Shown here: positions 11,298-41,337 of the stretch, piece after piece
Numbering within the stretch: position 1 is the stretch's first letter
Layout: the number at the start of each line of letters is the position of its first letter
Assembly: GCA_025350325.1 (NCBI GenBank)
Contig: JANXYB010000046.1
Span: 1-64,000 of the forward strand
Direction of reading: 5' to 3'
Length of the DNA: 64,000 bases
Source: Acidobacteriaceae bacterium
GTDB lineage: Bacteria; Acidobacteriota; Terriglobia; Terriglobales; Acidobacteriaceae
Notes under the pieces: generated by a model
What the model saw: the letters and a program-made list of their open reading frames with translations, nothing else
Told to the model about the DNA's origin: nothing
The model's database searches: none
Made by a program: the position numbers and the translations under genes

Positions 11298-11393
11298 GAC
11301 CAATGACAAGTTCATAACTTTATTACGCGATCCGGCGGTAACTAACCGAGCACTAACATAAGTAGCAACAGACCAACTTACATAGCCACCAAG

Positions 11394-11423
11394 GATGGTA
11401 CTTACATCTTTGGTGGCTTTTTC
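11394..11423 (+). terminator. Rho-independent terminator after beta-helix gene 1
   Basis: AGCCACCAAGGATG-gtactta-CATCTTTGGTGGCT (13/14 paired) followed by TTTT. Confidence 0.8.
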
Positions 11424-11847
11424 ATTGCTGTGGCTACGACCTATAGTGCGCAATGTATAAAAGACTTAAATCGAAAAGAGTTAATTCTTCCGCTGCCTTT
11501 CCAATCAAAATCAGGTAACACAAAGGTAACTTGTAGGTGACCTAGGTAATGACCCATTTGGGTGACCTTCGTTACATCTTTTTGCTAGTATTACGTACAA
11601 GATCCTTAGAGAAACCAACAAGAAAAGGCCGACAAGTTTTGTGCGGCCTTCATAACTTCCCCGTTCTTTGGGGTTGCCGTACACCCTCGCCCGCTGTGTT
11701 GTTTTGAGCTTGCGCCAGAAGTGGGACCCGATCGGTTGCCCTCTGACATGCCAGCTTGAGACCCGGTTAACACAGGGCGTTAGCGCTCGAGATTCCGGCC
11801 ACGCAGTTAGGCGACAGATTTTTACCCGTTATTTTTTGAGGTTTGAA

Positions 11848-13840: not shown

Positions 13841-13956
13841 TACCTGCTGTATGGATGGTTGGCAAATGTTATCATTTTCCGAATGATAAGGTTGATAACT
13901 TACTGCTCGCTTCGTGGGAATGCGCGATATTGTCAGTGTCGTTGGAAGGTTCGGAT

Positions 13957-15165
13957 TTGAAAGTTCTTTTATCTGCCTATGCGTGCGAACCAAACAAGGG
14001 TTCAGAGCCAGGCGTCGGCTGGAATTGGACGCAGGCTCTGCTGCGCAGAGGCTTCGCTCTTCACGTCATTACGCGGAGCAACAATCGCCAAAGCATTGAA
14101 AAGGAGTCGGCGTCTCAAGGTTCAAGCGTAACTTTTTCTTATTACGATTTGCCCGGCTGGGCACGTGCTTGGAAGTACTGGCCGGGAGGAATTTATCTGT
14201 ACTATCTGCTCTGGCAGATAGGCGCTTACCGGCTTGCGAAAAGACTTCACCGGCTACAAAACTTCGATCTTGTTCATCACGTAACGTTCGCTTCATACCG
14301 TCAACCGTCTTTTATGGGCGGTCTGGGCATACCGTTCATCTTTGGCCCGGTCGGCGGCGGCGAAACAATGCCGAAGAGTTTTCATAAAGGAATTCCGCTG
14401 AGTGGTCGTGTCGCCGAAATGGTGCGCGATTTCGGAAGCTCTCTCGTCGCGATTGATCCATTGATGAGATTAACGTTTTCGAGTGCGCGAATCATCGCTT
14501 GCACAACCAGCGATACGCTCGCAAGAATTCCGCGCCGTTATCACAATAAATGCATTGTGCAGCCTACGATTGGAATTAACGAATCGGAAATTGAGCCAGC
14601 TCGCCGCACATCTTTTCCGGTATCGCAATTTCTCTACGTCGGCCGTCTGCTCTATTGGAAGGGCCTACACTTGACCCTGCGCGCACTGGTCGAAGTGAGG
14701 CATTCCATTCCAGACGTGAAACTGAGAATTATCGGGGACGGAACTGATCGTGAATGGCTTAAGCAAGTCGCGCACGATGCAAATGTAGACGATGCGGTAG
14801 AGTGGATTCCTGCCAAGCCTCATCATGAAATTTGGCAGGAATATCGAATGAGCCTGGCCTTCGTGTTTCCTAGTTTGCACGACTCCGGAGGGATGGTTGT
14901 TTTGGAAGCCTTAGCGGCCGGTCTGCCAGTCATTTGTCTCGACCTGGGTGGGCCCGCAGCTATCGTTACGCCCAATTGCGGGGTTATTGTGCAGAGCCGA
15001 GTTGGAGATGAGGGCGCGGTAATAAAACAACTCGCGCAAGCCATGATTCATCTCGCGACCGATAGCGGCGAGAAAGAACGGCTCTCGGAAGGCGCTTTGT
15101 TGCGTGCCCGCGATACTACATGGGATCTGGCTGCGGATAGACTGTACCGCGCGCTCGGAACATGA
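13957..15165 (+). CDS. Glycosyltransferase, GT4/GT1 family
   Basis: LKVLLSAYACEPNKGSEPGVGWNW at N-terminus; FLYVGRLLYWKGLHLTLRAL and FPSLHDSGGMVVLEALAAGLPVICLDLGG. TTG at 13957 preceded by GGAAGG; the track ORF starts at 13855. Confidence 0.85.
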   Translation: MKVLLSAYACEPNKGSEPGVGWNWTQALLRRGFALHVITRSNNRQSIEKESASQGSSVTFSYYDLPGWARAWKYWPGGIYLYYLLWQIGAYRLAKRLHRLQNFDLVHHVTFASYRQPSFMGGLGIPFIFGPVGGGETMPKSFHKGIPLSGRVAEMVRDFGSSLVAIDPLMRLTFSSARIIACTTSDTLARIPRRYHNKCIVQPTIGINESEIEPARRTSFPVSQFLYVGRLLYWKGLHLTLRALVEVRHSIPDVKLRIIGDGTDREWLKQVAHDANVDDAVEWIPAKPHHEIWQEYRMSLAFVFPSLHDSGGMVVLEALAAGLPVICLDLGGPAAIVTPNCGVIVQSRVGDEGAVIKQLAQAMIHLATDSGEKERLSEGALLRARDTTWDLAADRLYRALGT

Positions 15166-18730: not shown

Positions 18731-20134
18731 CTATCGCCCTAACAACGCCTCGGGCATCGGGTCTCGAACTTCACCATGTACTGAGGTCGAAGGCTCCGCC
18801 ACCTTCGCGGCGCTCTTCATCGGAAATTCGTACATCATCAGCAGCGTCGTGAACCACAGAGGGTCCATGCGCGCAAAAACTGATTCAGACAGATTGAAGA
18901 TGATAGCGGCAATCAACACCGCAAACCTCATTCGCTGAAAGCGGTCGGAATCTACCGCAGTACCAATGCGTTTCACGAAGCGCCCGCCATTCATGGTCAG
19001 CAATAAGAAGAGCAATCCCAACCCGATGAATCCCCCATCGAGATAGATATCGATGTAGCCGTTGTGGGCGTTGGGAATCACTTCATGCAAGGACTCGTTG
19101 AACGCGAGCCCACCTGGTCCACCCCAAAAATTCCAGTAACCTGAGCCGATCAGCGGGTTGACCGTGCCGAGCGTGATGTGACTCCAGATCTCCGTCCGTC
19201 CGGTAAACGTCGCATCGCGCCCCAGCGCCTCAAGCAGGGGCCCAATCACATCGCTGAACTGCTGCGAGAAGAAAAGCAGGATTGGCAGGGCTACTGCCCC
19301 GGTTAGAACAGCTCGACTGATCTTTTTCGAACTCAGCTTTTTGCCGCGCAAGAGCAGAACTGCGCTCACCATAAGGCAGAGCAAAGAAGTCTTACTCTGT
19401 GAAAGCCTTAACAGCCAAAAGCCCATCAGGAGCAGGATTACGAGATCCCAAGGGACAGATTTGATTTGCCGCAGACTGATCGAAGGCTGGCTCGCAAAAT
19501 AGTCCCACAGCAAGAAGAGAGAAAAAATCAGAACCATCTCACCCAGCGAGTTCTTCTGCGTAGTCACGCCGGTGAACATCATTTCACCGGTGCCGCTGTA
19601 TGAACGACCAAAATCCGGATAGTACCTGACGAACACAACCGATAACGGGATCAACAGGAACGCACTTCGTACGAACACGGCCCGCATCGCTCTAAGCGGA
19701 TTTTTCTCAGAAAAAATCACGCCGGCTACAAACACGAGCCCAAAATCTTTAACGATTCTTTTCGCGGAACCGCCAGGATCGGAAGACCACAAAATGCTGA
19801 TTGCAAAAAATAGGTAGAACAGCATGATCGCCGAATTGTTCGCGATGACTCTGCCCCATTTGATTGCGCGCCTGGTGGCCACGACGAACGCAGACACCAG
19901 TACAGCCAGGAAAAACAACTGATCGGCAACGCTATTCTGCAAGTCATTCGCGTTTTCGATTCCAAGGCTGACGGCATGACCTTGAAGCCAGCGCGAAGGC
20001 GGCCTCGATGCCAGGATCATCATCAGCAAAGTGGGAATCCAGATCGCCCAACTTACATCGCGTCTACGCGAGCAGTCACGGACGATTAGGTACGCGCTGA
20101 AGAGCAGCGAAAATGTAAGGGCAATAATCGGCAT
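18731..20134 (-). CDS. O-antigen ligase / Wzy-type polymerase family membrane protein
   Basis: Polytopic; FTGRTEIWSHI...PLIGSGYWNFWGG...HNGYIDIYLDGGFIGLGLLFLLL matches the Wzy_C pattern. Confidence 0.85.
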   Translation of the reverse strand: MPIIALTFSLLFSAYLIVRDCSRRRDVSWAIWIPTLLMMILASRPPSRWLQGHAVSLGIENANDLQNSVADQLFFLAVLVSAFVVATRRAIKWGRVIANNSAIMLFYLFFAISILWSSDPGGSAKRIVKDFGLVFVAGVIFSEKNPLRAMRAVFVRSAFLLIPLSVVFVRYYPDFGRSYSGTGEMMFTGVTTQKNSLGEMVLIFSLFLLWDYFASQPSISLRQIKSVPWDLVILLLMGFWLLRLSQSKTSLLCLMVSAVLLLRGKKLSSKKISRAVLTGAVALPILLFFSQQFSDVIGPLLEALGRDATFTGRTEIWSHITLGTVNPLIGSGYWNFWGGPGGLAFNESLHEVIPNAHNGYIDIYLDGGFIGLGLLFLLLTMNGGRFVKRIGTAVDSDRFQRMRFAVLIAAIIFNLSESVFARMDPLWFTTLLMMYEFPMKSAAKVAEPSTSVHGEVRDPMPEALLGR

Positions 20135-20154: not shown

Positions 20155-21138
20155 TCAAGCGGATTTATTCCCCGGTAAATTCAGCTTCTGAAGGAATCGA
20201 GGCAGTTCTTCCCGGTCTACCCTCTTTGCCGATAGCGATTCACCCGTTTTGCTACTGATAGCGCGAGCAGGTAGGAACTCGAAACCGAGTCCATCCAACC
20301 CCCATCGCACCACCCTTGCTTCGACGCTGATTGTATCGTCAGGGCTCATTTCTTCTATGCCGGTTCTTTGTAACGTCATCAGAATTCCTGCCCCTAACGT
20401 CCACCGCTCGTCGGTAAGCAGATAAACTCCACTGATGCTTATGTCACCAACCAGGTAAGCTTGCGGAGCGCCGCCGGTCCAGTAATACCCTACTAATCCA
20501 GGCAGAGGATGCCGACTGCTGCGGCGCCTATTCTTAGGCGCATCCTCTGGGAAAATATAGTGAAACACGCGCGTTATCCACGGCCTTTTTTCGAGTTTTT
20601 GACCTTCGGCGTTTTCAGCGAGCCGTCCAATGGCAGCTTTTACTTGCTCAGGGGCAGCATTTGGATTGAAGTACGTATCATCGAGGGTGCAATAAAACTG
20701 TTCTTGCACGCTTTCAGTCAGTGACGAAACCGAATCGGCAGACGCAGGCGTTTGCCATGGTTGATGCAGGATCACTTCGGCATCGCATATTGTCAATTGG
20801 TCGCCATGCCTGAGCTGCGATGATTCGATCGAGCCACACGGCAAAGCGAGAGCGCTATCAGGCTGGCCTTTGATCGCTTCGCACTCATCCGCTGAGCAAT
20901 GAGGCACGGACTGAAGCACTCGATAGCGTTCATCGAGGTACACCAGGTCAAAGCGCGAAATACGATGATCCCTAGGGATACCCCGGAACGGACTGAGATA
21001 GAGGCCCGTGTCGGAAATGTTTGCGAGCTCGTTCACCAGCGAGGGTATGGTTTTGCTTGTGGTGTCGAACGAGATTACTCTTAATCCCACCAAAGTCTTG
21101 CGCGTCCGATTGCAGACGCAGAGCTTCGTAGTCCCCAT
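20155..21138 (-). CDS. PilZ-domain protein with DUF192-like N-terminus
   Basis: RRSSRHPLPGLVGYY (RxxxR) and VGDISISGVYLL (DxSxxG), the c-di-GMP-binding motifs of PilZ. Confidence 0.7.
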   Translation of the reverse strand: MGTTKLCVCNRTRKTLVGLRVISFDTTSKTIPSLVNELANISDTGLYLSPFRGIPRDHRISRFDLVYLDERYRVLQSVPHCSADECEAIKGQPDSALALPCGSIESSQLRHGDQLTICDAEVILHQPWQTPASADSVSSLTESVQEQFYCTLDDTYFNPNAAPEQVKAAIGRLAENAEGQKLEKRPWITRVFHYIFPEDAPKNRRRSSRHPLPGLVGYYWTGGAPQAYLVGDISISGVYLLTDERWTLGAGILMTLQRTGIEEMSPDDTISVEARVVRWGLDGLGFEFLPARAISSKTGESLSAKRVDREELPRFLQKLNLPGNKSA

Positions 21139-24013: not shown

Positions 24014-24312
24014 CCCAGAGTCTGATACTTTTGTGTGACGTCAGTCACCTGGATGGTTACTTTTGTGCAGTCATCAGGGCCAAGGCAAAAGGGGTGCATT
24101 ACGGGGAGTCTATCTCCCTAGACGGCCCCCGCGCAAAGCGGTGAACCATTAATTTATGACGTTTGTTCTTGCGCTAATTTAGCTACGGAGCAGTCAAAAC
24201 GCGAATAGGAAGCCTGCAAGGTTCTGACGCTGTTCTCATGCTAGTGTATATCAATATTTTAACACCGAAATCTGATAGTCGTTGGCCCAGAGGGCCGTCA
24301 GCGCGAGGATCA

Positions 24313-24729
24313 ATGAATTCGAACATGGACGGGTTTGCTTTTCATCATGTAGGGGTTGCGGTGCGGGAAATGCAGAGTGCAATTCCGCTCTACAAAAAAC
24401 TGTTCAATTATGGATTGGTTTCTGGTCCGTTCGATGATCCCGTTCAATGTGTGACGGTATCTTTCTTGAGTCGCGGAGTTGGGGACACTGTCATCGAGCT
24501 GGTTTCTCCGCTGGGGCCTAAGTCGCCTATCGATGGGGTCTTAAAAAAGGGCGGTGGCACCTATCACGTCTGTTACGAAGTGCCCGACTTGATACCCGCG
24601 ATTAACCACCTCACTGAGCAGGGCTGCTTGATGCTGAGTGAACCGGTGCCGGCGGTTGCATTTGAGATGCGAAAGATTGTCTGGCTGATGACCGAGACGG
24701 GCCTGCTAATTGAACTTTTGCAGGGATGA
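24313..24729 (+). CDS. VOC-family (glyoxalase / methylmalonyl-CoA-epimerase-like) protein
   Basis: FHHVGVAVREMQSAIPLYKKLFNY...GGGTYHVCYEVPDL...TGLLIELLQ. Confidence 0.8.
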   Translation: MNSNMDGFAFHHVGVAVREMQSAIPLYKKLFNYGLVSGPFDDPVQCVTVSFLSRGVGDTVIELVSPLGPKSPIDGVLKKGGGTYHVCYEVPDLIPAINHLTEQGCLMLSEPVPAVAFEMRKIVWLMTETGLLIELLQG

Positions 24730-24824: not shown

Positions 24825-26267
24825 TCAGAAAGCTTTGTAGACGATGTCGGGAGCGGGCTGATTGAGCAGCACAGTTATGACAAAAGCTGCGAGACCAAGC
24901 GCGGACACATAGACCACGCGGGCATAACGGCTCGTAAGCACGGGGCCAGAAGAAGTATGCAGCGACAACATCGAAGCGCGCAGGGCTTCCCAGGCTGCCA
25001 GAGCTAATGTGGCGATTAGCCAGGCCGCAAGCCAGACGGTGAGCCATTGCAGCACGGTCATGCTCGAGAAGGTTTTGCCGATGCGCTCCCAGTCGGCCCA
25101 AAACCAGAAAAGTGTGAATCCAAACCATACGAAGTTGAGGCCGCGACCAAACGCGATGTAGAGGGGTTTCCTGGCTAACTCCTTATAGCGTTTGCGTCCC
25201 ATCCCGCTTACGAGTCGCAACTGCCACAGCTTGTTGATTGAGATGCCGCCGCCGGTAAGAATTCCAAAGACCACGAATTCAGATGTGCGACCGTGCCAGA
25301 CTCCAATCAGGAAAAACGTAACGAAGAAGCATAGGACGCCAAGGTAGGGCTGCAAAGTCAAAGACGAAGCGCGGCGCATGAGGGCCAGCAGCAGGGGATT
25401 GTAGACATATATCTTGAGCCAATTGGAAAGCGTCATGTGCCAGCGGTTCCAGAAATCTAGGACCGACGAAGCTGCGAAGGGACGGTCAAAATTCTCTGGG
25501 AGGCGCAACCGCATGAGGCGAGCCAGTGCAATCACGATGTCTATATAGCCAGAGAAGTTTGCGTACAGAAACAGGGGATAGACGAGAGCCAGGCAAATCG
25601 CCGCTGAGAACTTGAGTGAAAAGGGCAGCGCTTGTGAAATTTGCGAGAGTGCATCTTGCTGTGCGGCGCGGAGAAACATGGCCAGCACATTGACTTTGAA
25701 GAATCCTACGACGATGCGTTCAAGTTGGAGGCCTATTACACTCGGTCCTAGCGCGGGCGGCACGTCGGCAAACTGGTCGCGTGCGAATTCGTCATAAAAC
25801 TGAATCGGGCCTGAAACGAGCGTAGTGAAATTGAGGGTGTAGAGAAGATAGGATCCGATGTTAATGTTGCGTTTTTCCTGACCCTCACCCGACTCGATCA
25901 GCAAATGGAGCACGCGGAAGAAAATGTACGACAGCCCAAGTGTGAAGTAGGGGAAGTGAATAAACGTTGACGCGGGCAGAAACGTGTATTTCTTGAGCCA
26001 GATGTACGCTACAACGATGGCTAGCAGGCTCCAGACCAGCGTCCGGGACCAGCCGCGCTGCAGCAGAACAAGTGCGCCGTAACCCAAGGCTAGAAATCCG
26101 ATCAATGGGATAAACGCGCGCGGGCTGTGCGAAAGCATGCCGAGAAATACCAGCGACGCAAGCAACAGCACTGTGGACCGCCAGATGCGCGAGCGGCTGA
26201 AATTCGACAGCAACGCGACGGCGAGACCAAATAAGACGAACTGGAGAGAAGCCGAGTCCATGCTCAT
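24825..26267 (-). CDS. MBOAT-family O-acyltransferase (AlgI/DltB-like)
   Basis: Polytopic; FWNRWHMTLSNWL and FFLIGVWHGRT with the MBOAT catalytic His. Confidence 0.9.
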   Translation of the reverse strand: MSMDSASLQFVLFGLAVALLSNFSRSRIWRSTVLLLASLVFLGMLSHSPRAFIPLIGFLALGYGALVLLQRGWSRTLVWSLLAIVVAYIWLKKYTFLPASTFIHFPYFTLGLSYIFFRVLHLLIESGEGQEKRNINIGSYLLYTLNFTTLVSGPIQFYDEFARDQFADVPPALGPSVIGLQLERIVVGFFKVNVLAMFLRAAQQDALSQISQALPFSLKFSAAICLALVYPLFLYANFSGYIDIVIALARLMRLRLPENFDRPFAASSVLDFWNRWHMTLSNWLKIYVYNPLLLALMRRASSLTLQPYLGVLCFFVTFFLIGVWHGRTSEFVVFGILTGGGISINKLWQLRLVSGMGRKRYKELARKPLYIAFGRGLNFVWFGFTLFWFWADWERIGKTFSSMTVLQWLTVWLAAWLIATLALAAWEALRASMLSLHTSSGPVLTSRYARVVYVSALGLAAFVITVLLNQPAPDIVYKAF

Positions 26268-27535
26268 TTCGCCGAGGCCTGTGTACCGTTTGGCGCTGCC
26301 TTCCCTTTAAGCGCCGGGACTGATCCCTCGGTGAGGTGCCGGGCAATCATTGCGGCGAGCATCGCATGGCCTGCTTCATAAGGGTGGCCGTCGACGGGCA
26401 TGAAGTTGCTTTCAGGGTTTAGAACGGTGCGGAAATCTGGAAAGATATCGATGAAGTTGCCACCGTGACTCGTGATTGAGGCGCGCACCTGATCGTCAAG
26501 CTTGTACGGATCGTAGCCTTGGGGCCACTCGCCGGCGGAAATCATGGCAGCCTGGGCACGATTGGGAATAAGGACTGCGACCAGCGGTATACCTGCGTCT
26601 TTGGCTTGTGCTACAACCTGTGCACCATAGCCATCAAATTGATTGAGGTCGTCCTTCCATTCCCGTGTCCATTCGGTCTTTAAAAATCCGATCTTGTCGT
26701 CGGGGTTCATTAAATAGGCTTTCACATAAAGGCTGCGGCTCTTATAGATGTAATGGGTGAGCAACACGCGAAATCGGAATTGCTTCAGCTCGGAATATAG
26801 CGCAGTCGCGAGCGACTCTAAGCCCATCTTTTTAGCCAGGCGATGCATGGTCGATGCGCGCAGGCTCACTGCCTCAGGCTGGCCGCCTTGCGCATTGCCG
26901 AGGGCAGCGAGGTAGTCGCTTTCCGGTTGGAGGCCGGAAGCGTGATCGATATCCCAGGGCGTCAAAATCCAGAGAATCAAATCCGGCTTTACCGCTGTAA
27001 TCTCGTTGAAGCGCAGCGAAATGCTGTGTGGCGTTCCTCCATAGGCGGCGCCGATTGAGGTGTTATATATGTCCACTTTGTGACCGGTCCTCTGCGACAA
27101 CTCCGCAGGCAGTAGCCCGGCAATCGATTTGTCGCGGGGAACGTACAAACCCATGGCGATGGAGGAGCCCGTCATAACGATTCGGTAGCTGCCTTCTGGT
27201 TTGGGTCCGCATTCTACGCCTGCACGATGACCGCAGCTATTGAACTTATATTCGGCCCATGTAGATTCGCTGCCTTTGGCCCAACAATGGGAATTCGGAA
27301 TTCCGCGAACGCCGGTGGAAATGTCATTCAGCACCAGGCATGGGGCCAGATGCGTTTCAGCATCGACGAAGTTTTTGCGTGCGAACATCTCGCTGCCGGC
27401 AATCAAAACAACAATCGTGACCAGGGCCAGAAATGGAAGCAGAATCCAGTCGCGCCGCAAAAGCTTCGGCTCTTCTGCCGCGGCATTTTCGTTTTTGTCT
27501 GTCGAGGTCATGGGCGAGGGAATTCTATCCGGCAT
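26264..27535 (-). CDS. Membrane-anchored SGNH/GDSL hydrolase-like protein (AlgJ/AlgX-like role)
   Basis: N-terminal TM; IVMTGSSIAMGL block I; PVDGHPYEAGHAMLA (D-x-H). Start overlaps the FkbH-like stop; stop overlaps the MBOAT start. Confidence 0.75.
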   Translation of the reverse strand: MPDRIPSPMTSTDKNENAAAEEPKLLRRDWILLPFLALVTIVVLIAGSEMFARKNFVDAETHLAPCLVLNDISTGVRGIPNSHCWAKGSESTWAEYKFNSCGHRAGVECGPKPEGSYRIVMTGSSIAMGLYVPRDKSIAGLLPAELSQRTGHKVDIYNTSIGAAYGGTPHSISLRFNEITAVKPDLILWILTPWDIDHASGLQPESDYLAALGNAQGGQPEAVSLRASTMHRLAKKMGLESLATALYSELKQFRFRVLLTHYIYKSRSLYVKAYLMNPDDKIGFLKTEWTREWKDDLNQFDGYGAQVVAQAKDAGIPLVAVLIPNRAQAAMISAGEWPQGYDPYKLDDQVRASITSHGGNFIDIFPDFRTVLNPESNFMPVDGHPYEAGHAMLAAMIARHLTEGSVPALKGKAAPNGTQASAK

Positions 27536-29441
27536 TAACGAATCCTTGCGAAACGACTTTCATCGGTGCGGCTTCGATCTCTGCGCCTTCGACCATCAAT
27601 TCCCAGCTCGTCAAGCCGGTCTCATCCTTCATCACCAGGTCAAAGCCGAGTTTGGGATAGTGATCGACGACGAGCTTGTTGCGCTCGGTGGGCTTGTAGA
27701 CGCCGACCAACTTGTGAATGCCGTTGGCGCGGGCGTGCTCAAGTATTTCGCGAAGCACCATGTGCTCCACTTTGCGGCCAAGCACGCGGCAACTCATCAG
27801 CCAGGTGTCGATCTGCCAGACGCCCGCGTCCGCTGGGCGGCATATGACGACGCTGACCATGCCGTTGTCGCCAAAGATATCGGCGAGGCGAATCTGGCGG
27901 GTGAAGACATGGGGATCGTTCTCAACCTCTGCCACTTCAGGATCGGTGTAGCGGCGCGTGGTGAGGTTATATTGATTCGATTTGTTGATGAGCTGAACGA
28001 TGCGAGCCCGGCCTGTGGCGTCGAATGGCTGGAAAGTTATTGTCATGTCGAGCGACGCCAGATACGCATCGAGATTTCCAACCTGCTTCTGCAGAGTGGC
28101 GCGGCGTGCATTGTCCTGATAGAAGCCAGCGCGCTTCAGATCTTCGCTGGCGAATGTGACAGCTTCGAAGTAGCCTGCGGCTGCAAGATACCGTACATAG
28201 CCAGCAGCATCATCAGGCAACTCCGGCACGGCAACCTGCGGCAACATCTGGCGTACGAGGCCGCGCTCGACTGGATTGTCATCGAGAAACACGAGAGAGT
28301 CGAGGCCCAATGAAAGTTCGTTGGCAATGGCCTGCAGGTTGGTGGCTTTGTCGTTCCAGTTGGCCTGGAAGACGGCGATGTGATCTAGCTTAAGCAGCAT
28401 TTCAGGATGCTTCTGGAAGGGTTCCCGTGCAACTTCGTCGGTATTCTTCGAAGAGACGGCCAGCACGATTCCGCGTTTGCGCAGATCAAGGGCCAGACGC
28501 TGCACGGCAAGATGAGCTTCTCCGCGCGCGTCGCCCTGTGCAATGTTGATGCCTTCAAGGCCATCGTCGCCGATCACTCCGCCCCACACGGTGTTATCGA
28601 GATCGAGCACGAGCACTTTGGCGCTTTTGCCGCGGATGGCAGCTACGATGCGCGCGACATGATCGGCGTAGAGGGGGATGAGTTCGTCGGAGAAAGGGAA
28701 CTTACCCATGTTCCACAAATGCAAGTCGTGCCAATCGGCAAGGCCCACGGTTTCGGCTAAACCGGCCACGTCAAAAAGTACGTCGCCCGATTCCAGAACC
28801 ATAACGGTGAGTTCGCGGTTGACGGCGTCGATCAGGCTGCGCAGGGTGCCGGGCAGTGCCCGGTCGAGGCTTCCAAAGAGCGGTTCAACGGGCGAAGCAA
28901 GAGATTGAAAGATACAGACAGAGTTTGAATTTGACTTGATGCCTGTGCGCAGCGCCTGCAGATAACCAACGGTCCCCTGCACGGTTGCCTGGGCGGCCTC
29001 CTGGTCTCCGAGAGAGAGTTTCAATGGCAGCGCGCGATAGTCGAGTGCGAAGAGGACTGCATCGGAATTGGAACTATTGACAGTCGAGTCCGGAGTCAGA
29101 GCTTCTTGCGCTACCTGATCGTAGGAGGGCTGAATGACCTGCAGATCGATGCCATGGCGGGCGGCACTCGCTATCAAGGCAGGCACGATCATATCGATCG
29201 TTGAGTTACTGAGCACCGCGAGCCGGAAGGGAACCAGCGGACTGAGCGAACGTTTTTGAGACCGCGCATTGGCGATGAACTTTGCCAGTTTGGTTAGCTG
29301 ATTCAGGTCGAGAGCGCCCAAGGCGAGTGAGCGGAGTTCAGCGCCGACGGGGCCTGTTTCGCTGGCCAACGCCTTGAGCTTCGATGAGAAATCGAGCTGG
29401 GCACGTGGGAGCCATTGCAATTGTGCGTAAAGGGAATTCAT
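27525..29441 (-). CDS. FkbH-like HAD-IIIC protein with C-terminal GNAT-like region
   Basis: VLVLDLDNTVWGGVIGDDG HAD-IIIC motif I; SLVFLDDNPVERGLVRQ; C-terminal IDTWLMSCRVLGRKVEHMVL as in FkbH-domain proteins. Confidence 0.9.
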   Translation of the reverse strand: MNSLYAQLQWLPRAQLDFSSKLKALASETGPVGAELRSLALGALDLNQLTKLAKFIANARSQKRSLSPLVPFRLAVLSNSTIDMIVPALIASAARHGIDLQVIQPSYDQVAQEALTPDSTVNSSNSDAVLFALDYRALPLKLSLGDQEAAQATVQGTVGYLQALRTGIKSNSNSVCIFQSLASPVEPLFGSLDRALPGTLRSLIDAVNRELTVMVLESGDVLFDVAGLAETVGLADWHDLHLWNMGKFPFSDELIPLYADHVARIVAAIRGKSAKVLVLDLDNTVWGGVIGDDGLEGINIAQGDARGEAHLAVQRLALDLRKRGIVLAVSSKNTDEVAREPFQKHPEMLLKLDHIAVFQANWNDKATNLQAIANELSLGLDSLVFLDDNPVERGLVRQMLPQVAVPELPDDAAGYVRYLAAAGYFEAVTFASEDLKRAGFYQDNARRATLQKQVGNLDAYLASLDMTITFQPFDATGRARIVQLINKSNQYNLTTRRYTDPEVAEVENDPHVFTRQIRLADIFGDNGMVSVVICRPADAGVWQIDTWLMSCRVLGRKVEHMVLREILEHARANGIHKLVGVYKPTERNKLVVDHYPKLGFDLVMKDETGLTSWELMVEGAEIEAAPMKVVSQGFVNAG

Positions 29442-29490
29442 CGATGCGACTCTCGACCAACAGGGTTGGACACCGGCACAACGCTCCGCC

Positions 29491-29727
29491 TCAACCGCGC
29501 GCTTTGATCAATGAGACCAAATCGTTGACGTTTTCCATCTTGCCGATCTCAGAAGTTGAGAATTTGATCTTGAACGCCTTCTCGATCGTAAGCATCAAGC
29601 GAATGTGGGTGAGGCTGTCCCAACCATCTACGTCTTTCGCCGATAATTCGCGTGTCACTCTTACATCATCATCAAAGACGTCGCGAAATATCTCATCGAG
29701 ACGTGTATAGATTTGTGGTTCATCCAC
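29491..29727 (-). CDS. Acyl carrier protein
   Basis: VDEPQIYTRLDEIFRDVFDDDV...VDGWDSLTHIRLMLTIEKAFKIKF with DSL phosphopantetheine site; GTG start at 29727 with GAGGAG upstream. Confidence 0.85.
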   Translation of the reverse strand: MDEPQIYTRLDEIFRDVFDDDVRVTRELSAKDVDGWDSLTHIRLMLTIEKAFKIKFSTSEIGKMENVNDLVSLIKARG

Positions 29728-30077
29728 AGTAAAATCTCCTCGCGCTACGAATCGAAAAGAAAACAAATGATGTTGGCTCAAGTGGAGACTATCACAGGCG
29801 AACTCAAGTAGGAATGTACTTGAAGTGACATCCGGGCTCGGTACTTTCTTAGGATTGACCGCTCTCGGAGACGCCTGATTTGTGCGTCGAACTCTTGAAA
29901 GGAGGATAAAGTTAAGGGAATCGCAATAGCGATGTTTTCAGCTTTCGTTTGCGAGAATTCGCACATTTTCGCCGATCCGCGGCCCAGTTTAAAACCCTGC
30001 TTCACCCTAGAACATCATACAAAGCGTAGATTGCAGCTCATTCCAATTCACTCGACATAACTGGAGCACAGTCGTAG

Positions 30078-31832: not shown

Positions 31833-31965
31833 GGACGGCGTCAGTATCTTTTCAGGTTAAGTGGGTTTCGCGCTCCGTAAATACAAGCCAAACCCTGCAC
31901 TACCTCTAACCAGACAAAAAAATAGACCTTGGAAGAGCTGTACCTGCCCGACATACAATTCGACT

Positions 31966-33377
31966 ATGAGAGTGTTGCTTGCGTTTTTTGTTGCCTCTGG
32001 GGCTGCATTGCTCTCTGTGTCAGTTACGGCGGCGGCTCTGTCTGTCGCTACCAATTCTCCTAAGCCGCTTTCTGCGCGCGTCACCTCCTACGACATCGAT
32101 GCGGACTTGAACACCGACAAGAAGTCGCTCGATGCCACCGAGGTTCTGACTTACAAAAACGTAACAGGGCAGCCGCTGTCTTCCATCCCTTTCCATCTGT
32201 ATCTCGATGCGTTTCGCCCGCAATCCACATTTACCAGTGAGACACATTTTACGGGTGGCATCCGCGACTCTGAGAGTGAGGACGATTACCCAAGTGAAAA
32301 ACTAGGCGGCATCACTGTCTCGAAAATTACGGCGGACAGTTATGGCGATTTGTCGCGTGAAATGCATTTCACCGCACCCGACGATGGTAATGCGGAAGAC
32401 CACACTGTCGCTGAGATTCACCTTCCTCATCCGCTTGCGGCCGGCGATACGATTACCTTTCACCTGGCATTCCACGACCAATTTCCACTTTCGATTGCCC
32501 ACAACGGCTACAAGCGCGACTTCATCATGGGTGGCCAGTGGTACCCGAAGCCAGGCGTGTTTTGGCACGGCGCGTGGAATTGTCACCAGTACCATTCAAC
32601 GACGGAGTTCTTTTCGGACTTCGGGACTTTCACTGTCTATCTGACCGTGCCTGATCGCTACGTTGTCGGGGCCAGTGGCGTACCGACCGGCAGTCGCACT
32701 ACGCCAACGGTACTAAAACGCTTGACTTCGTTGGCGAAGACATTGGCGACTTCGCATTTGCGGCCAGCCCTAACTTCACCATCACTGACGGCACCTTCGC
32801 CTCATCAATGGGTCCAGTCAAAGTGCACGTGCTAGCTCTCGCTGCGCACCCGGATGCCGGTCGCCGCTATCTTGACATCATGCTCAAGACGCTTGCGGAG
32901 TTCGACCGACGCTTTGGACCGTACCCGTACAAGATAATCACTGTTATTGATCAAGCGGTCTATGGAACGCAGGTTTTGGATTACGCAGTTGACAGTGTTT
33001 CTTCGAGCCCGGTGCAGTGGTGGGTGCCTGAACCCGACGATAAGAATGCCAGGAAGATGGTGCCGTACATGAACACTGTGTACCTACGCCGCCGTCAGGA
33101 TTTTGTGCTGCCGGTTACGGTCGAGGTCATTTTCGACGACGGTACGCGGGTGCGGGACCATTGGGATGGTGTGGATCGTTGGAAGAAGTTGACCTACGTT
33201 CGCAATGCGAAGGTGGTCTCCGCCGAGATTGATCCTGACCATTCCGTCCTGCTCGACGTGGACTTCTTCAACAACAGTTTCACCACCAAGGCAAATGGCA
33301 TCCCAGCCCGCAAGTTCACGACGATTTGGGTGGCAGCCCAACAATTTTTCGCTCAGATCGCGGCATGGGTCGTCTAA
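31966..33377 (+). pseudogene. M1-family metallopeptidase remnant: frameshifted, catalytic segment missing
   Basis: 31966..32835 shifts frame near 32700 and continues DFVGEDIGDFAFAASPNFTITDG...FGPYPYKIITVID; it then jumps to a C-terminal-like region (YGTQVLDYAVDS...DGTRVRDHWDGVDRWKKLTY). No HExxH found. Confidence 0.75.
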
Positions 33378-34565: not shown

Positions 34566-37500
34566 TTAGGCATGCAAGGCGCGCGAAGGTTGAGCTGCTT
34601 CTCGTTTGAGTAACGGCTTGACTTCCCAGTTCCACTTCCAGATCGCGAAGATGGGCGGATAGACGATCAGCTCCATGAGGAACGAAGTGATGATGCCGCC
34701 GAGCATGGGCGCTGCGATACGCTTCATGACATCCGCCCCAGATCCGGTCGACCACATGATGGGAAGCAGTCCGAAAAGCATGCACGCCACGGTCATAAGT
34801 TTCGGCCGGAGCCGTTTGACCGCACCATGGACGATGGCTTCGCGCAAATCATTCCATGAGTGAATGCCCCCGTTCTTCAGCGCTTCGTGGTAGGCCAGGT
34901 CGAGATAGAGCAGCATGAATACGGCGGTCTCGGCATCGACGCCGAGCAATGCGATGAGGCCGACCCACACGGCGATGCTCATGTTGTAGTGCAACAGATA
35001 GAGGAACCAGACGGCGCCGATGGCTGAGAAGGGCACGGCCAGCAAAATAATCATGGTCTTGATCGCCGACCCGGTATTGAAATAAAGCAACAGGAAGACG
35101 ATGAAGAGCGTGATGGGAACGACGAGTTTCAATCGCTGGGCAACGCGCTGCATGAACTCGTATTGACCGCTCCAAACAAGCTCGTAACCTGCGGGAACTT
35201 TGACTTGGTCTGTCACAGCCTTTTTAGCATCGCGCACATAGGTGCCGATGTCTCGTCCTGCGACGTCGACGTAGACATAGCCGCTGAGCCTGCCGTTCTC
35301 ATCGCGGATCATTCCGGGGCCAGTTCTCATGTGAATGTCCGCGATCTGGCCGAGCGGAATTTGTGCACCGGAGGGCGTTGCCACCAGCACGCGCTGCAGC
35401 GCGTCGACATCGCTGCGGTAATCGCGCAGATAGCGAACGTTGACTGAATACCGCTCACGCCCTTCTACGGTGGTTGAGACCTGCTCTCCGCCGACCGCGG
35501 ACATGAGAACGCTCTCGGCGTCATCGATGGTCAAGCCGTAGCGCGCAAGTTCCTCTCGCTTCAAATCGAAATCAAGGAAATATCCGCCACTGGTGCGTTC
35601 TGCAAAGACGCTGCTGGTACCAGGGATATCTTTCAATGCATTTTCAATCTGTATGCCAACTTGCTGAATTTGCGCGAGGTCGGAGCCGAGTACCTTGATG
35701 CCGAGCGGGGTACGAATGCCGGTGGTCAGCATGTCGGTGCGATTCTTGATGGGCATGGTCCAGGCATTGGAGATGCCCGGTATCTGCAATGCTTCATTCA
35801 GTCCGCCGGGACCATAGGTCAGTTCCTGGGTTGATACGTGATCAGGCCAGAACCTTCGCAGAACAGGCTGGATTTTTTGCGGCATTGATTTCGAGTACCA
35901 GCGATCTACCTTGGGCCACTGGTCCTGCGGCTTGAGCACGATCGTACTCTCCATCATGGAATACGGAGCTGGGTCGGTTGAGCTCTCGGCGCGGCCAGCC
36001 TTGCCGAAGACGCGTTCCACTTCAGGGAAGCCGCGGATGATCTTGTCCTGCGTTTCGAGTACGCGCTCGGCCTCGGTAACGGAGATGCCGGGCAGCGTGG
36101 AGGGCATGTAAAGGAGCGTGCCCTCATCGAGCGGCGGCATGAACTCCGATCCGAGTTTGAAATAGACGGGAGCACTGAGCGCCATAACCAGCAAAGCTAT
36201 GCCGATGGTCAGCCACTTATGATCGAGGACAAACTCGACCACCGGGTGATAGATCTTCATCATCGGCTTGCTGATGGGATGGTTCTCTTCGCTATGGATC
36301 TTGCCAACGAAGAGGGCATTGACGATCTTCGCCAGCCATTGGGGGCGGAAGTTGAAGCCGTCCATGCGGGAAAACAGGAAGCGCATCGCCGCCGGAGCCA
36401 AGGTGATCGCCAGGATTGCCGCGATGGCCATGGAGAAATTTTTAGTGAAAGCGAGCGGCTTAAAAAGACGGCCCTCCTGACTCTCCAAGGTGAAAACGGG
36501 AAGAAAGCCCACGGCGATGACCAGCAAGGCAAAGAAACTGGGCCCTCCAACTTCCTTCACGGCAGCGATCACGACAGCGTGCGATGGGCCGGGGCGGCCT
36601 TCAGCCTCCCAATGCTCGAGCTTCTTGTGCGTTTGCTCGACCATCACGACGGATGCGTCAACCAGGGCCCCGATGGCTACAGCAAGACCGCCGAGCGACA
36701 TGATGTTGGCCGTCATTCCCATCATCTGCATCGGAATGAAGGCCAGAATTACTGTGACGGGAATGGTGATGATGGGAACAATCGCACTGCGCAAATCCCA
36801 CAGGAAGATCATGATCACGAGACTCACGATGATCAGTTCTTCGATCAGAGTGTGGCGGAGGTTATCGACAGCACGGTCGATCAACTCAGAGCGGTCATAC
36901 GTGGTGACCAGTTTGACGCCGGGAGGAAGCGTTGACTTGAGGTCGTTCAACTTCTCCTTAGTGCGTTCGATAACCTTCTGGGCATTCTCACCGTAGCGCA
37001 TGATCACGACGCCGCCGACGACTTCGCCCTTGCCGTCTAACTCTCCGACGCCTCTGCGCATGTCGGGGCCGAATGTAACGGTGGCTACATCCCGGACTAG
37101 AACCGACGTTCCGGTTTGCGCGTTGTACATAATGACGGTCTTGCCGATGTCGTCAAGCGAACGAATGTATCCGCGGCCACGCACCATATATTCGCGTCCG
37201 GTGAATTCGACCAATCGTCCGCCGACGTCGTTGTTGGATTTCTGTACCGCATCGCTGACCGCGTTGATGGGGATTTTATATGCGAGCAGCTTGTTGGGAT
37301 CTACATTCACCTGATACTGGCGCACAAAGCCGCCGATAGGAGCGACCTCGGCGACACCGGGTACAGTCTGCAAAGCGAAGCGAAGATTCCAATCCTGGAA
37401 AGATCGTAGTTGGTCGATGCTGTACTTCCCCGTGGTGTCGACGAGGGCATACTGATAGACCCATCCAACGGAAGTAACATCTTTTGCCAGCTCAACGCTC

Positions 37501-37871
37501 ACACCTTTCGGTAGTTTTGAAGTTACGGAATTTAAGTATTCGAGCGTGCGAGATCGAGCCCAATAAATGTCCGTCCCTTCATCGAAAATAATGTAGATGT
37601 AGGAGAAGCCGAAGTCGGAAAAGGCGCGAATGTCCTTGACCTTCGGCAGTCCGAGCAGCGCGGAGGCAATCGGATAAGAGACCTGATCTTCCATGATGTC
37701 GGGACTGCGGTCCCACTTGGCGTAGACGATCACCTGGGTATCCGATAGATCAGGGATCGCGTCGAGCTTCGTGTTCCTCATCGCGTACCATCCGAGAACG
37801 ATGGCAACGGCAACGAACAGGAAGATCAGAAACCTGTTCTTGTCGCTGAAATCAATAATCCTGTTCATCAT
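34566..37871 (-). CDS. cusA: Heavy-metal efflux RND inner-membrane pump, CusA/CzcA family
   Basis: 1101-aa RND protein: DLSDTQVIVYAKWDRSPDIMEDQVSYPI, GALVDASVVMVEQTHKKLE, SEFMPPLDEGTLLYMPSTLPGIS. Confidence 0.92.
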   Translation of the reverse strand: MMNRIIDFSDKNRFLIFLFVAVAIVLGWYAMRNTKLDAIPDLSDTQVIVYAKWDRSPDIMEDQVSYPIASALLGLPKVKDIRAFSDFGFSYIYIIFDEGTDIYWARSRTLEYLNSVTSKLPKGVSVELAKDVTSVGWVYQYALVDTTGKYSIDQLRSFQDWNLRFALQTVPGVAEVAPIGGFVRQYQVNVDPNKLLAYKIPINAVSDAVQKSNNDVGGRLVEFTGREYMVRGRGYIRSLDDIGKTVIMYNAQTGTSVLVRDVATVTFGPDMRRGVGELDGKGEVVGGVVIMRYGENAQKVIERTKEKLNDLKSTLPPGVKLVTTYDRSELIDRAVDNLRHTLIEELIIVSLVIMIFLWDLRSAIVPIITIPVTVILAFIPMQMMGMTANIMSLGGLAVAIGALVDASVVMVEQTHKKLEHWEAEGRPGPSHAVVIAAVKEVGGPSFFALLVIAVGFLPVFTLESQEGRLFKPLAFTKNFSMAIAAILAITLAPAAMRFLFSRMDGFNFRPQWLAKIVNALFVGKIHSEENHPISKPMMKIYHPVVEFVLDHKWLTIGIALLVMALSAPVYFKLGSEFMPPLDEGTLLYMPSTLPGISVTEAERVLETQDKIIRGFPEVERVFGKAGRAESSTDPAPYSMMESTIVLKPQDQWPKVDRWYSKSMPQKIQPVLRRFWPDHVSTQELTYGPGGLNEALQIPGISNAWTMPIKNRTDMLTTGIRTPLGIKVLGSDLAQIQQVGIQIENALKDIPGTSSVFAERTSGGYFLDFDLKREELARYGLTIDDAESVLMSAVGGEQVSTTVEGRERYSVNVRYLRDYRSDVDALQRVLVATPSGAQIPLGQIADIHMRTGPGMIRDENGRLSGYVYVDVAGRDIGTYVRDAKKAVTDQVKVPAGYELVWSGQYEFMQRVAQRLKLVVPITLFIVFLLLYFNTGSAIKTMIILLAVPFSAIGAVWFLYLLHYNMSIAVWVGLIALLGVDAETAVFMLLYLDLAYHEALKNGGIHSWNDLREAIVHGAVKRLRPKLMTVACMLFGLLPIMWSTGSGADVMKRIAAPMLGGIITSFLMELIVYPPIFAIWKWNWEVKPLLKREAAQPSRALHA

Positions 37872-38368
37872 TGGAAGTGCGCCTCGCTCATCAGTTGCAC
37901 GAACGAAATAACAGTTCCGCCATTTGCCGCTGTAAAGTCCTGGGCCTCCAGCCTGGTCGCGAACGTCAAGGTCCCAGGGGAGCAGCGGTCGTACGCGATT
38001 TCAGACGTCGCTTTCATCTCATCCATGTGCATCCCGTTGTGTTCGCACGCCATGACGCGGCTTGCCTCGACGTACCATGCCGACTGAGGTGACATTGCCT
38101 TGGCCGTGCTGTAGTCATGCACGGTGATCAGGCGCACCGGCTTGTGCTCCTGATTGGCTTCGGTAATAGCGCAGCGAGGACAACAGACTTCTTCCCTCTT
38201 GCCATCAATCTCCGCTACTACTTTGACGTTTGCGTGCAATGGACGCAGGCAGTAGCCGCAAGTGACCGGGGTTGGATGAGCGACATTTCTGTACCAGACA
38301 TAGACGCCGGCGCCAACAATGATCAGCAGAGTGACGGTAAGAGCAATACGTCGTGAGTTCATGGTCAT
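37868..38368 (-). CDS. NosL-like / Cys-rich periplasmic protein in the metal-efflux operon
   Basis: N-terminal TM; VTCGYCLRPLH and EVCCPRCAITEANQ cysteine pairs; ATG overlaps cusA start (37868-37871). Confidence 0.6.
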   Translation of the reverse strand: MTMNSRRIALTVTLLIIVGAGVYVWYRNVAHPTPVTCGYCLRPLHANVKVVAEIDGKREEVCCPRCAITEANQEHKPVRLITVHDYSTAKAMSPQSAWYVEASRVMACEHNGMHMDEMKATSEIAYDRCSPGTLTFATRLEAQDFTAANGGTVISFVQLMSEAHFQ

Positions 38369-38372
38369 CCTC

Positions 38373-39845
38373 TCAGTGCGCCATTCCGCCCATTGCGGTT
38401 TTGAGTCCGCTTTCAGAATCGATCAGGAAGTTTCCTGAAACGACGATCGTCTCGCCAGCCTTGAGGCCTGAAAGGATCACCGCGTTGCCGTCTACCACGG
38501 GCCCAATTGAGACCTTTCGAGGCTCAAACATGCTTCCGTCGTGCACTACAAAGACATGTTGCTCGGTGCCCGAGTTAAGAACCGCTTCCTGCGGCACGAT
38601 GATCTTCGTCCCGTAGTCGACGTGCAATTGGGCGTCGGCGAACATCTGCGGCTTCAGCACAAAGCCTGGATTTGGAATCTGGATCCGGGCTTTGATGGTG
38701 CGCGTCTGCGGATCGACGGTGGGATAGATGTATGAGATGGTTCCGGTGTACGTCTTGCCGGGGTAGTAGCTCAGTGTAAGAGTGACGCGCTGGCCAAGGT
38801 GAACGAAGGGAACCTCGTACTCATAGATGTCGGCGTCGGCCCATACCGTGGACAAATCCGAAACCGTGTATAACTCTGTGTCCGGCGTAACCGAAGTCTG
38901 CGAAAACACTTTGCGATCGGTGACGAAGCCGGTGATGGGCGAATAAAACGTCAGATCCTTGCTCACCTTTCCGGTCTCATCGAGATCTTTGATCTGGGCA
39001 TCCGATATGTCCCACAGCTTGAGGCGCTGCCGGGCGGACTGCAAGAGGGATTGCGATCCCTGGGCTATCTCTTGAAATGGCGCATTACCGAGGGTCGCAT
39101 TGCCGCGCTTCGCAATGAGGTATTCCTCTTGCGTCGAAACGAGGTCGGGGCTGTAGAGCGTGAAGAGTGGCTGGCCCTTCTTGACCAGTTGACCAACAAA
39201 ATCGACAAATACCTTATCTATAAAGCCCGCGACCTTGACGTGGATATGAGCGATCCTGGTTTCGTCGGCAACGATTTGCGCGCTTGTACGAATGTCGCGG
39301 ACCAGCGATTTGCGCTCGACTACTGCCGTCCGCACCCCTGCGAGCACTTGCTTTTCTGGCGGTATCGTCACCGTGCCCATCGGCATTTTGGCCATACTTT
39401 GATCTTCAGCATACTTGGGAACGAGCGTCATGCCACAGTCGGGAGCCTTGCCAGGCTTGTCAGATTTGTAGGCCGGATGCATCGGGTCGTACCAGTAGAG
39501 GACCTTTCTATCACCGACGGCGGCGTCCTTTGAAGACATCGTCGACATGTTGGCGGCGGTCTTAGCTTGCGCGTTTGGAACCTGGTCCGCAGGAGATGCC
39601 GTCTGTTCCGCATACTGTGGAACCAGGTCCATCCCGTCTGGAGCTTTGCCGGGCTGGTTGTAATGGTGCTGCGGGTTCATTGCGTCGTACCAGTAAACAG
39701 GTTTTCGCTCGCCTTTTGTGTTTTGGGATACAGCTACGGCACTCCCTCCTTGACCAAACCAATGGTGAGTCGCGCCTGCATAAACAAGCCCAAGCATTAA
39801 CGCGAGCAAGATCCCAAGGATGATTTTCTTTGGTGAGCGGTTCAT
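38373..39845 (-). CDS. cusB: RND periplasmic adaptor, CusB-like, with two N-terminal heavy-metal-binding domains
   Basis: KPVYWYDAMNPQHHYNQPGKAPDGMDLVPQYAE and KVLYWYDPMHPAYKSDKPGKAPDCGMTLVPKYAE, then an adaptor body (GFIDKVFVDFVGQLVKKGQPLFTLYSPDL). Confidence 0.9.
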   Translation of the reverse strand: MNRSPKKIILGILLALMLGLVYAGATHHWFGQGGSAVAVSQNTKGERKPVYWYDAMNPQHHYNQPGKAPDGMDLVPQYAEQTASPADQVPNAQAKTAANMSTMSSKDAAVGDRKVLYWYDPMHPAYKSDKPGKAPDCGMTLVPKYAEDQSMAKMPMGTVTIPPEKQVLAGVRTAVVERKSLVRDIRTSAQIVADETRIAHIHVKVAGFIDKVFVDFVGQLVKKGQPLFTLYSPDLVSTQEEYLIAKRGNATLGNAPFQEIAQGSQSLLQSARQRLKLWDISDAQIKDLDETGKVSKDLTFYSPITGFVTDRKVFSQTSVTPDTELYTVSDLSTVWADADIYEYEVPFVHLGQRVTLTLSYYPGKTYTGTISYIYPTVDPQTRTIKARIQIPNPGFVLKPQMFADAQLHVDYGTKIIVPQEAVLNSGTEQHVFVVHDGSMFEPRKVSIGPVVDGNAVILSGLKAGETIVVSGNFLIDSESGLKTAMGGMAH

Positions 39846-39975
39846 AGCTTAATACTCCTCTTAGCCATGAGAAGAATGCGGTTGGTGTCAATGACCGGTA
39901 CGGCAACGGATTCCCTGCACAGCAATAGATCGTGAATTGGCAAGGACAGTGGCTCGAAGGGCGTGTGCGAGGACA

Positions 39976-41337
39976 CTAATTGACCTCCTTCGCGGGTTGA
40001 GAATCCGGGGTTGGGGCTACGGGGACGAACGGCCCTGCCACATCCGAACCGGTGAGAGTCTCAATCCGAGCTACAGCCGTTTCGTAGTCGGCCAGTTGCC
40101 GGTAATAGTCTATTTCGTAATTCAAGAGCGTAGTGAAATTGGACAGCAGCGAAAGGAAATCTACGCTACCCACCTGATAGGAAGCCATTGAAGATTCGAG
40201 AGCGAGCGAGGACTGAGGCACCACTCCTTTGGAGTAGAGAGTGAGCAGTCGTTCAGAGGCTTTGGCGGTCAGGTATTGCTGTTTCAATTCAAACTTGACT
40301 TCATTCAAGCGGTTGTCGCGCATCTTCTCGGCGCTGATCAGGTCTTCACTTGCTTCGGCCACGCCCTGACGTTGTTTGCTTTTGTAGAAGATGGGAATGC
40401 TCACGCTAAAGGTCGCGCCATTCATGTCGGGCAGCGCCGAACGCTGCTGAAACATGTAGCTCACGCCGATGTCGGGGCGATACTCCCTCTGCGCGAGAGC
40501 GACGCCCAAACGACTCCGTTCCACCATGATTTTGTTGCGGAGAACGGTAGTGTCATTGTCCGCAGCAAGAGCATACAACTCGTCAAGAGAGAATCGGATG
40601 GTCGCAGGTTCGACTTCGGCGGCGGGAGGCAACGGAGATTCCGGTGCACGAACCATGAACACATTCAGCCGTGCCTGTGCCGTCGCCCGCTGCTGTTCGA
40701 GCACCGTGAGATTTTCAATCAGCAGGGAAATCTCCACCTGAGACCGCAGCACATCTGGCTGCATCGCCTTTCCAACACGGTAACGAGCTTCGGCGATCTT
40801 CGATAGCTTTTCTAAAAGTTCCTTGTTCCTCTCCGTAGTCTGGATGGCTCGGTCGAGGTAGAAGTAGTCGAAGTACGACGCCCTCACTGCGGAGGTAATG
40901 CGGCGTCGAATGGCCTCGTAGTCGGCTTGTGCCGCTTGTGCCTCTTTACTCGCGATCTGACCGCGCAACTTCAATTTGCCAGGATAGGGAAATTGCTCTG
41001 AGACGGTGACCCCGCGGTAGCTCGAACTGTCACCCTGCATAAGACTGAATGGAGCAGGATTGCCAGCCCATCCCACGGAGACCATGGGATCGGGCAGCGA
41101 CTTTACCTGCGCCACGCGGCGTTGCAAAGCATTCACAGTGTGAAGCGCGCTTTGGGCTTCCGGATTCTTCTCTAACGCTTCCCGGACGACGTTTTCAAGC
41201 ACTAATACCTGGCGGACGGGACCCTGATCGGCCCGAACATTGGCGATGACCGCCGGCTCTGGTGCGTTGCTGTCTTGCGCAGGCAGAGCAAATGCGGGCG
41301 CGAGCAGCAGGATCGCAAAGATCCTTGTGGTTCTCAT
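39976..41337 (-). CDS. TolC/CusC-family outer-membrane efflux protein
   Basis: Signal peptide; coiled-coil repeats; VSEQFPYPGKLKLRGQIASKEAQAAQADYEA; end of the RND operon. Confidence 0.85.
   Translation of the reverse strand: MRTTRIFAILLLAPAFALPAQDSNAPEPAVIANVRADQGPVRQVLVLENVVREALEKNPEAQSALHTVNALQRRVAQVKSLPDPMVSVGWAGNPAPFSLMQGDSSSYRGVTVSEQFPYPGKLKLRGQIASKEAQAAQADYEAIRRRITSAVRASYFDYFYLDRAIQTTERNKELLEKLSKIAEARYRVGKAMQPDVLRSQVEISLLIENLTVLEQQRATAQARLNVFMVRAPESPLPPAAEVEPATIRFSLDELYALAADNDTTVLRNKIMVERSRLGVALAQREYRPDIGVSYMFQQRSALPDMNGATFSVSIPIFYKSKQRQGVAEASEDLISAEKMRDNRLNEVKFELKQQYLTAKASERLLTLYSKGVVPQSSLALESSMASYQVGSVDFLSLLSNFTTLLNYEIDYYRQLADYETAVARIETLTGSDVAGPFVPVAPTPDSQPAKEVN

Follow-up and report, generated by a model that had tools for sequence, protein, structure and literature searches.

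The window, a 64,000-nucleotide stretch of an Acidobacteriaceae genome, carries four genes in a tight minus-strand operon, together with an adjoining fifth enzyme gene:

29491-29727 (-): ACP, 78 aa, with the phosphopantetheine site GWDSL
27525-29441 (-): FkbH-like protein, putative ACP loader, 638 aa; FkbH_N, HAD-IIIC phosphatase and C-terminal transferase domains, with DLDNTVWGG
26264-27535 (-): SGNH protein, 423 aa, with GSS and DGH; one N-terminal TM helix, membrane-anchored
24825-26267 (-): MBOAT-family membrane acyltransferase, 480 aa, with GVWHG and the conserved WHG histidine; AlgI GGNR motif absent
24238-24729 (+): VOC-superfamily protein of the methylmalonyl-CoA-epimerase type, with PF13669 and metmalonyl_epim matches; putative acyl-ACP epimerase

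An earlier, sequence-only reading had described the order ACP-FkbH-SGNH-MBOAT, and all four open reading frames were confirmed at these positions with the motifs given, as were the overlapping stop and start pairs at 27525-27535 (FkbH/SGNH, 11 nt) and 26264-26267 (SGNH/MBOAT, 4 nt, ATGA). The fifth gene, a member of the VOC family, was absent from that reading. The ACP gene might instead begin at an upstream TTG, with its start then at 29781, which leaves its start codon uncertain. A carrier protein, an MBOAT and an SGNH protein are encoded within one operon, which is the Dlt-type arrangement. In the Pfam search, PF13813 scored over its cut-off among the operon proteins.

Sequence comparisons support a putative role for the FkbH-like protein as the loader of glyceryl from 1,3-bisphosphoglycerate onto the ACP. 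The protein scores 285.1 bits against the TIGR01686 FkbH domain model (cut-off 146.65) and matches PF21211 (FkbH_N) over cut-off, and its closest PDB entry is 3slr. The HAD residues D280, D282, S331, D387 and D388 are invariant across 31 aligned relatives, as is the C-terminal C551, which lies in SCRV; among the FkbH proteins checked, all untruncated ones have the SCR motif, and the only two loci without it are truncated. Presumably, C551 is equivalent to the C-terminal cysteine to which the acyl group is attached in homologues of FkbH. The ACP scores just under its Pfam cut-off (19.9 vs 20.8), yet it matches 11 NCBIfam ACP models, and by its sequence it is a divergent carrier protein with an intact GWDSL. 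The phosphopantetheine serine of this motif is found in 74/74 cassette ACPs. Formation of glyceryl-ACP by FkbH homologues has been reported (PMC7489565).

A different acyl group could be carried by the ACP if FkbH used another phospho-acyl substrate, or if another enzyme charged the ACP and FkbH only dephosphorylated the product. Consistent with this alternative, no characterised protein is among the FkbH relatives, which share 35-80% identity with that of the window, and the genome does encode other adenylate-forming enzymes. However, the FkbH-family catalytic motifs are kept, C-terminal cysteine included, and ACP and FkbH are neighbours in most of the loci described below, such that a non-glyceryl acyl group is unlikely. 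A DltA elsewhere in the genome was also considered as the loader and ruled out, since no protein in the genome scores over the DltA cut-off (TIGR01734), the best reaching 209 bits against 559.85.

Conservation of the cassette was examined in a first sample of 80 loci, gathered by FkbH similarity alone and scored for the other components using profiles derived from these loci. Adding the window and a second locus of the same genome brings the total to 82 loci anchored on FkbH. Their hosts belong to the Acidobacteriota, the alpha-, beta- and gammaproteobacteria, and the Myxococcota. A survey for FkbH, ACP and MBOAT genes in the absence of polyketide genes had been proposed in the sequence-only reading, and its outcome bears out the association: ACP was found in 74 loci, MBOAT in 70 and an SGNH-type protein in 61, with several of the loci that miss a component being short contigs. 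The SGNH slot in 24 loci is occupied by proteins of unproven homology, for which the hhalign match is weak (E 0.018-0.026). Gene order varies between loci while membership is constant, and median gaps are 53.5 nt for ACP-FkbH, -4 nt for FkbH-SGNH and 2 nt for SGNH-MBOAT. Given that an MBOAT of any kind occurs in only 66 of 199 Acidobacteriota genomes, the frequency of MBOAT genes at FkbH loci indicates that the operon arrangement is not due to chance. A second sample, of 586 alphaproteobacterial and Sphingomonas genomes, yielded 40 further FkbH loci, and an MBOAT was present in 26 of the 34 scoring above 440 bits.

A ketosynthase partner for the cassette was ruled out by a motif search of 83 loci, none of which carries the ketosynthase motif. 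Likewise, the operon has no genes for the FkbG-K partners of the methoxymalonyl pathway (acyl-CoA and hydroxyacyl dehydrogenases, PKS), and the earlier statement that no ketosynthase or FkbG/I/K partner was recognised holds. Two loci depart from the usual composition. At L150 (5021-9881), FkbH follows an AT3-SGNH fusion, an OafA-type acyltransferase, in place of the MBOAT, and L161 (5322-9915), from a Sphingomonas-group genome, has two tandem FkbH genes amid methyltransferases and glycosyltransferases. A search of the open-access literature, with most subscription journals outside its coverage, found no relevant paper joining FkbH or HAD-IIIC with MBOAT.

The window MBOAT matches PF03062 over cut-off, and a sequence search for solved MBOAT relatives found only DltB structures (8jem/6bug, E 7.6e-31). 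Against the TIGR04091 DltB model it scores 162.7, under the cut-off of 375. The residues of Lactobacillus plantarum DltB that bind DltC are M298, V301, F302, M305 and R313 (PMC9338922); these were placed by spacing at M302, V305, I306, M309 and R317 of the 6bug sequence. At the equivalent positions, the residues of the cassette MBOATs are hydrophobic, in an NPLLLALM-like stretch. The AlgI-type motif PLGG[NS]R, which follows FWxRWH, was found at the aligned position in 0/66 cassette MBOATs and in 28/33 control MBOATs, the controls being ordinary MBOATs of the phylum; eight controls are listed as lacking the motif, three of them cassette-type proteins. One weak MBOAT of the second sample (L145) has IPLGGYR. 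These comparisons support a carrier-binding region that would be DltB-like rather than AlgI-like. Descent of the MBOAT from DltB was considered and is unsupported: in an MBOAT tree with a long branch, the cassette proteins do not group reliably with DltB and split into two or more lineages within the AlgI-type proteins. Because they fall outside DltB in at least two lineages, the resemblance to DltB is one of function only and not of family membership.

AlgI/AlgJ-type MBOAT/SGNH pairs acetylate polysaccharides, and the window MBOAT and SGNH proteins might accordingly be an ordinary acetyl-CoA-dependent O-acetyltransferase for EPS, with the ACP and FkbH belonging to an unrelated small-molecule pathway that shares the operon. 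The same genome does have a GGNR-type MBOAT elsewhere. Nevertheless, FkbH, ACP and MBOAT stay linked across phyla in varied gene orders, GGxR is absent from cassette MBOATs of separate lineages, and no ketosynthase or other small-molecule partner accompanies them in the 83 loci searched by motif. Taken together, these data make an ordinary O-acetyltransferase very improbable.

The SGNH protein is matched by sequence only to AlgX, weakly (17.8 bits). Its AlphaFold model (pLDDT 85.6), which has one N-terminal helix (H27-55), was matched by Foldseek to SGNH/GDSL esterases and Campylobacter jejuni PatB with a probability of 1.00. Residues G123-x-S125 and H384 are invariant in 26 relatives. These features are consistent with a putative extracytoplasmic acyl acceptor or transferase, in a role like that of DltD, AlgX or PatB.

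The VOC gene is convergent with the operon, tail to tail, and ends 95 bp from the MBOAT gene; the first 27 residues of its open reading frame are low-confidence and may be untranslated. The model of the protein is nearest to 2qh0/3hdp and many methylmalonyl-CoA epimerases (MMCEs). Residues H37, D67, E87, H110 and E159 are invariant; of these, H37, E87, H110 and E159 align with the residues that bind the metal in MMCE and glyoxalase. The gene could be an unrelated neighbour, that is, a housekeeping MMCE or glyoxalase, as might be suggested by its strand, opposite to that of the operon in the window, and by how common generic MMCE relatives are. However, the genome has no methylmalonyl-CoA mutase, which rules out a housekeeping MMCE role, and it has no further copy of the VOC gene. 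Moreover, among 385 alphaproteobacterial genomes each of the four best matches to the VOC protein (124-201 bits) is found at an FkbH locus, and the next match, at 77 bits, is at the level of an ordinary MMCE. The VOC gene is also within the operon in many loci, and L009 and L010 place it as in the window. An unrelated neighbour is thus a poor explanation, and the natural reading is a dedicated enzyme performing MMCE-type alpha-carbon chemistry on acyl-ACP. Based on context and chemistry, the VOC protein may be a glyceryl epimerase, an assignment that is tentative.

The VOC gene is one of several that accompany the core. A VOC gene is present in 22 of the 82 loci and a MaoC dehydratase gene in 26, of which 13 encode a MaoC-SDR fusion and ten have a separate SDR; a methyltransferase gene occurs in seven of the 82 loci. 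The MaoC catalytic motif is found in 22/26 proteins, and YxxxK in all SDRs checked. VOC and MaoC never occur together, whether in the 70 MBOAT-bearing loci (p 1e-5), the 40 loci of the second sample (p 0.098 alone) or the pooled 110 loci (p 2e-6). After dereplication, the exclusivity has p 0.0096 at 75% and p 0.067 at 65%, and phylogenetically independent pairs, which are few and underpowered, give a median p of 0.25. The exclusivity is strong by plain counts and weakened by relatedness.

The window genome itself has the alternative set, at a second cassette:

L086 (contig C131), 3705-10013 (-): FkbH, ACP, MaoC-SDR fusion, MBOAT and SGNH-type genes

Its FkbH is only 38% identical to that of the window and its MBOAT 28%, and the gene in its SGNH slot has no Pfam match and was assigned by position and motif only. 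A single organism with both the VOC and the MaoC-SDR variants offers a clean internal test.

From these genes we infer a tailoring step before export, in which the acyl group on the carrier becomes an epimerised glyceryl or a lactyl group. In other cassettes, MaoC/SDR or the methyltransferase should alter the acyl group while it is bound to the carrier. Elimination of the 3-OH from glyceryl-ACP by MaoC would give 2-hydroxyacrylyl/pyruvyl-ACP, which the SDR could reduce to lactyl-ACP. Glyceryl had been named in the sequence-only reading as a possible transferred group; the intact catalytic residues of FkbH agree with this, but the tailoring genes (VOC, MaoC/SDR, methyltransferase) mean that the group need not be plain glyceryl. 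It is conceivable, if rather speculative, that the system is a modular workshop: FkbH would supply D-glyceryl-ACP, interchangeable enzymes would decide which acyl group is finally made, and export would fall to a DltB-like MBOAT together with an SGNH protein; VOC would then give L-glyceryl, MaoC with SDR lactyl, and the SAM methyltransferase an O-methyl group. The glycerate of gellan has the L stereochemistry. If correct, the modular model would account for the glyceryl and lactyl esters found on Gram-negative polysaccharides, among them perhaps the L-glycerate of gellan, and the tailoring gene present would predict the final acyl group. Glycerate is a known substituent of gellan; in a review from 2015, an acetyltransferase alone is named for this polymer (PMC4443731). 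The open-access literature on gellan glyceryl genes and on FkbH with glycans yielded nothing on point.

The identity of the acceptor is suggested by gene context. Three genes near the window cassette are relevant:

18731-20134 (-): Wzy_C / O-antigen-ligase-type membrane protein (PF04932, 54 bits)
20155-21138 (-): PilZ-domain protein (PF07238), with a homologue beside the genome's second cassette
13855-15165 (+): GT4-family glycosyltransferase (PF00534, 112 bits)

This context favours EPS as the candidate acceptor. EPS-type genes (Wzz, Wzx, sugar-transferase, GT, polymerase-type) lie near at least 34 of the 82 loci, counted by cluster and without a background rate, which is fewer than half of the loci within the stretch examined. 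The same transfer machinery might thus serve an acceptor other than EPS, such as LPS, a protein glycan, a lipid or a periplasmic small glycan, and isolated cassettes do exist, with the genome's second cassette among them. Against such an acceptor are the Wzy, PilZ and GT genes near the window cassette, the Wzz, Wzx, sugar-transferase and GT genes at many other loci, and the glycan acyltransferase that precedes FkbH at L150, so that a non-EPS acceptor is somewhat unlikely. The PilZ protein of the window and that at 10611-13256 of L086 match by BLASTP (8e-23), with 45% identity over the PilZ part, and with one such protein near each cassette, the polymer might be under the control of c-di-GMP.

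Two neighbouring genes at 9669-13761 (+), upstream of that for the GT4 protein, encode paralogous secreted proteins of beta-helix-like type; these may be enzymes belonging to the same EPS locus that degrade polymers. Elsewhere in the window, 31861-33377 (+) is an apparent single gene present as two overlapping open reading frames, with a frameshift near 32808-32835, and resembles an M1-type peptidase gene that is either broken or misassembled. A likely heavy-metal RND efflux operon of the CusA/CusB/outer-membrane-factor type lies at 34566-41337 (-). The region 42067-44046 (-) encodes a serine-hydrolase-like protein whose C-terminal half has about five repeats of a unit of about 50 residues (WxARHGLTxxQYQxxFDQLV...).

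The gene content, its conservation, the intact catalytic residues, the motif swap in the MBOAT and the dedicated VOC clade are observed directly, and from them the following route can be proposed. FkbH would take the 3-phosphoglyceryl group of 1,3-bisphosphoglycerate, dephosphorylate it at the HAD site and load glyceryl onto holo-ACP. In the window cassette, the probable target of VOC would be C2 of the glyceryl group on the ACP, and epimerisation to L-glyceryl is the simplest such reaction. The MBOAT would receive the acyl group from the ACP at the cytoplasmic face and move it across the membrane, and the anchored SGNH protein would place it on EPS or another envelope glycan. The VOC step and the acceptor are inferred from context and chemistry only. 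The conserved cassette, the FkbH residues, and MBOATs without PLGGNR and with hydrophobic residues at the positions that bind the carrier in DltB support a Dlt-like route. By analogy with known families, the core, comprising FkbH loading, MBOAT transfer and SGNH placement, probably serves to acylate an exported polysaccharide by way of a carrier protein, in a Dlt-like manner. In the sequence-only reading, such a route had been proposed with FkbH in the place of DltA; its architecture, with FkbH, ACP, MBOAT and SGNH corresponding to DltA, DltC, DltB and DltD, is well supported by conservation, by DltB as the nearest solved relative and by the lack of a DltA, whereas its chemistry is supported only in part.

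If this is correct, envelope acylation that depends on a carrier protein would exist in a second form beside D-alanylation, one that takes a glycolytic intermediate directly as its substrate and is widespread among Gram-negative bacteria of soil and water. It would also provide candidate genes for the glyceryl and lactyl esters of EPS, which affect gel properties and charge, and would make the origin of these groups directly testable.

There are clear parallels with several known systems. As in FkbH/OzmB/RkD polyketide loading, an FkbH-domain protein is encoded beside a standalone ACP, with the HAD residues and the cysteine conserved; unlike in those pathways, there is no ketosynthase, FkbG/I/K or FabH-like partner, and the partner is instead an MBOAT/SGNH export pair. 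The neighbouring VOC protein shares its fold and metal ligands (H/E/H/E) with methylmalonyl-CoA epimerase, but it belongs to a separate clade tied to FkbH cassettes, in a genome without the mutase. O-acetylation by AlgI/AlgJ/AlgX-type and PatA/PatB systems similarly involves an MBOAT and an SGNH protein acting on a periplasmic polysaccharide, whereas the cassette has a dedicated ACP and loader, and its MBOAT lacks GG[NS]R. The Dlt system likewise combines a carrier protein, an MBOAT with hydrophobic residues at the carrier-binding positions and an anchored SGNH-type protein in one operon. One important difference is that Dlt uses the adenylating ligase DltA, in whose place the window cassette has an FkbH-like enzyme; others are the putative carrier-tailoring enzymes, the didermal hosts and an MBOAT under the cut-off of the DltB model. 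Exchangeable acyl-tailoring enzymes on a Dlt-like system with a different loader are newly seen here. The product that the window cassette would make, a glyceryl ester on EPS, has its counterpart in the gellan of Sphingomonas elodea.
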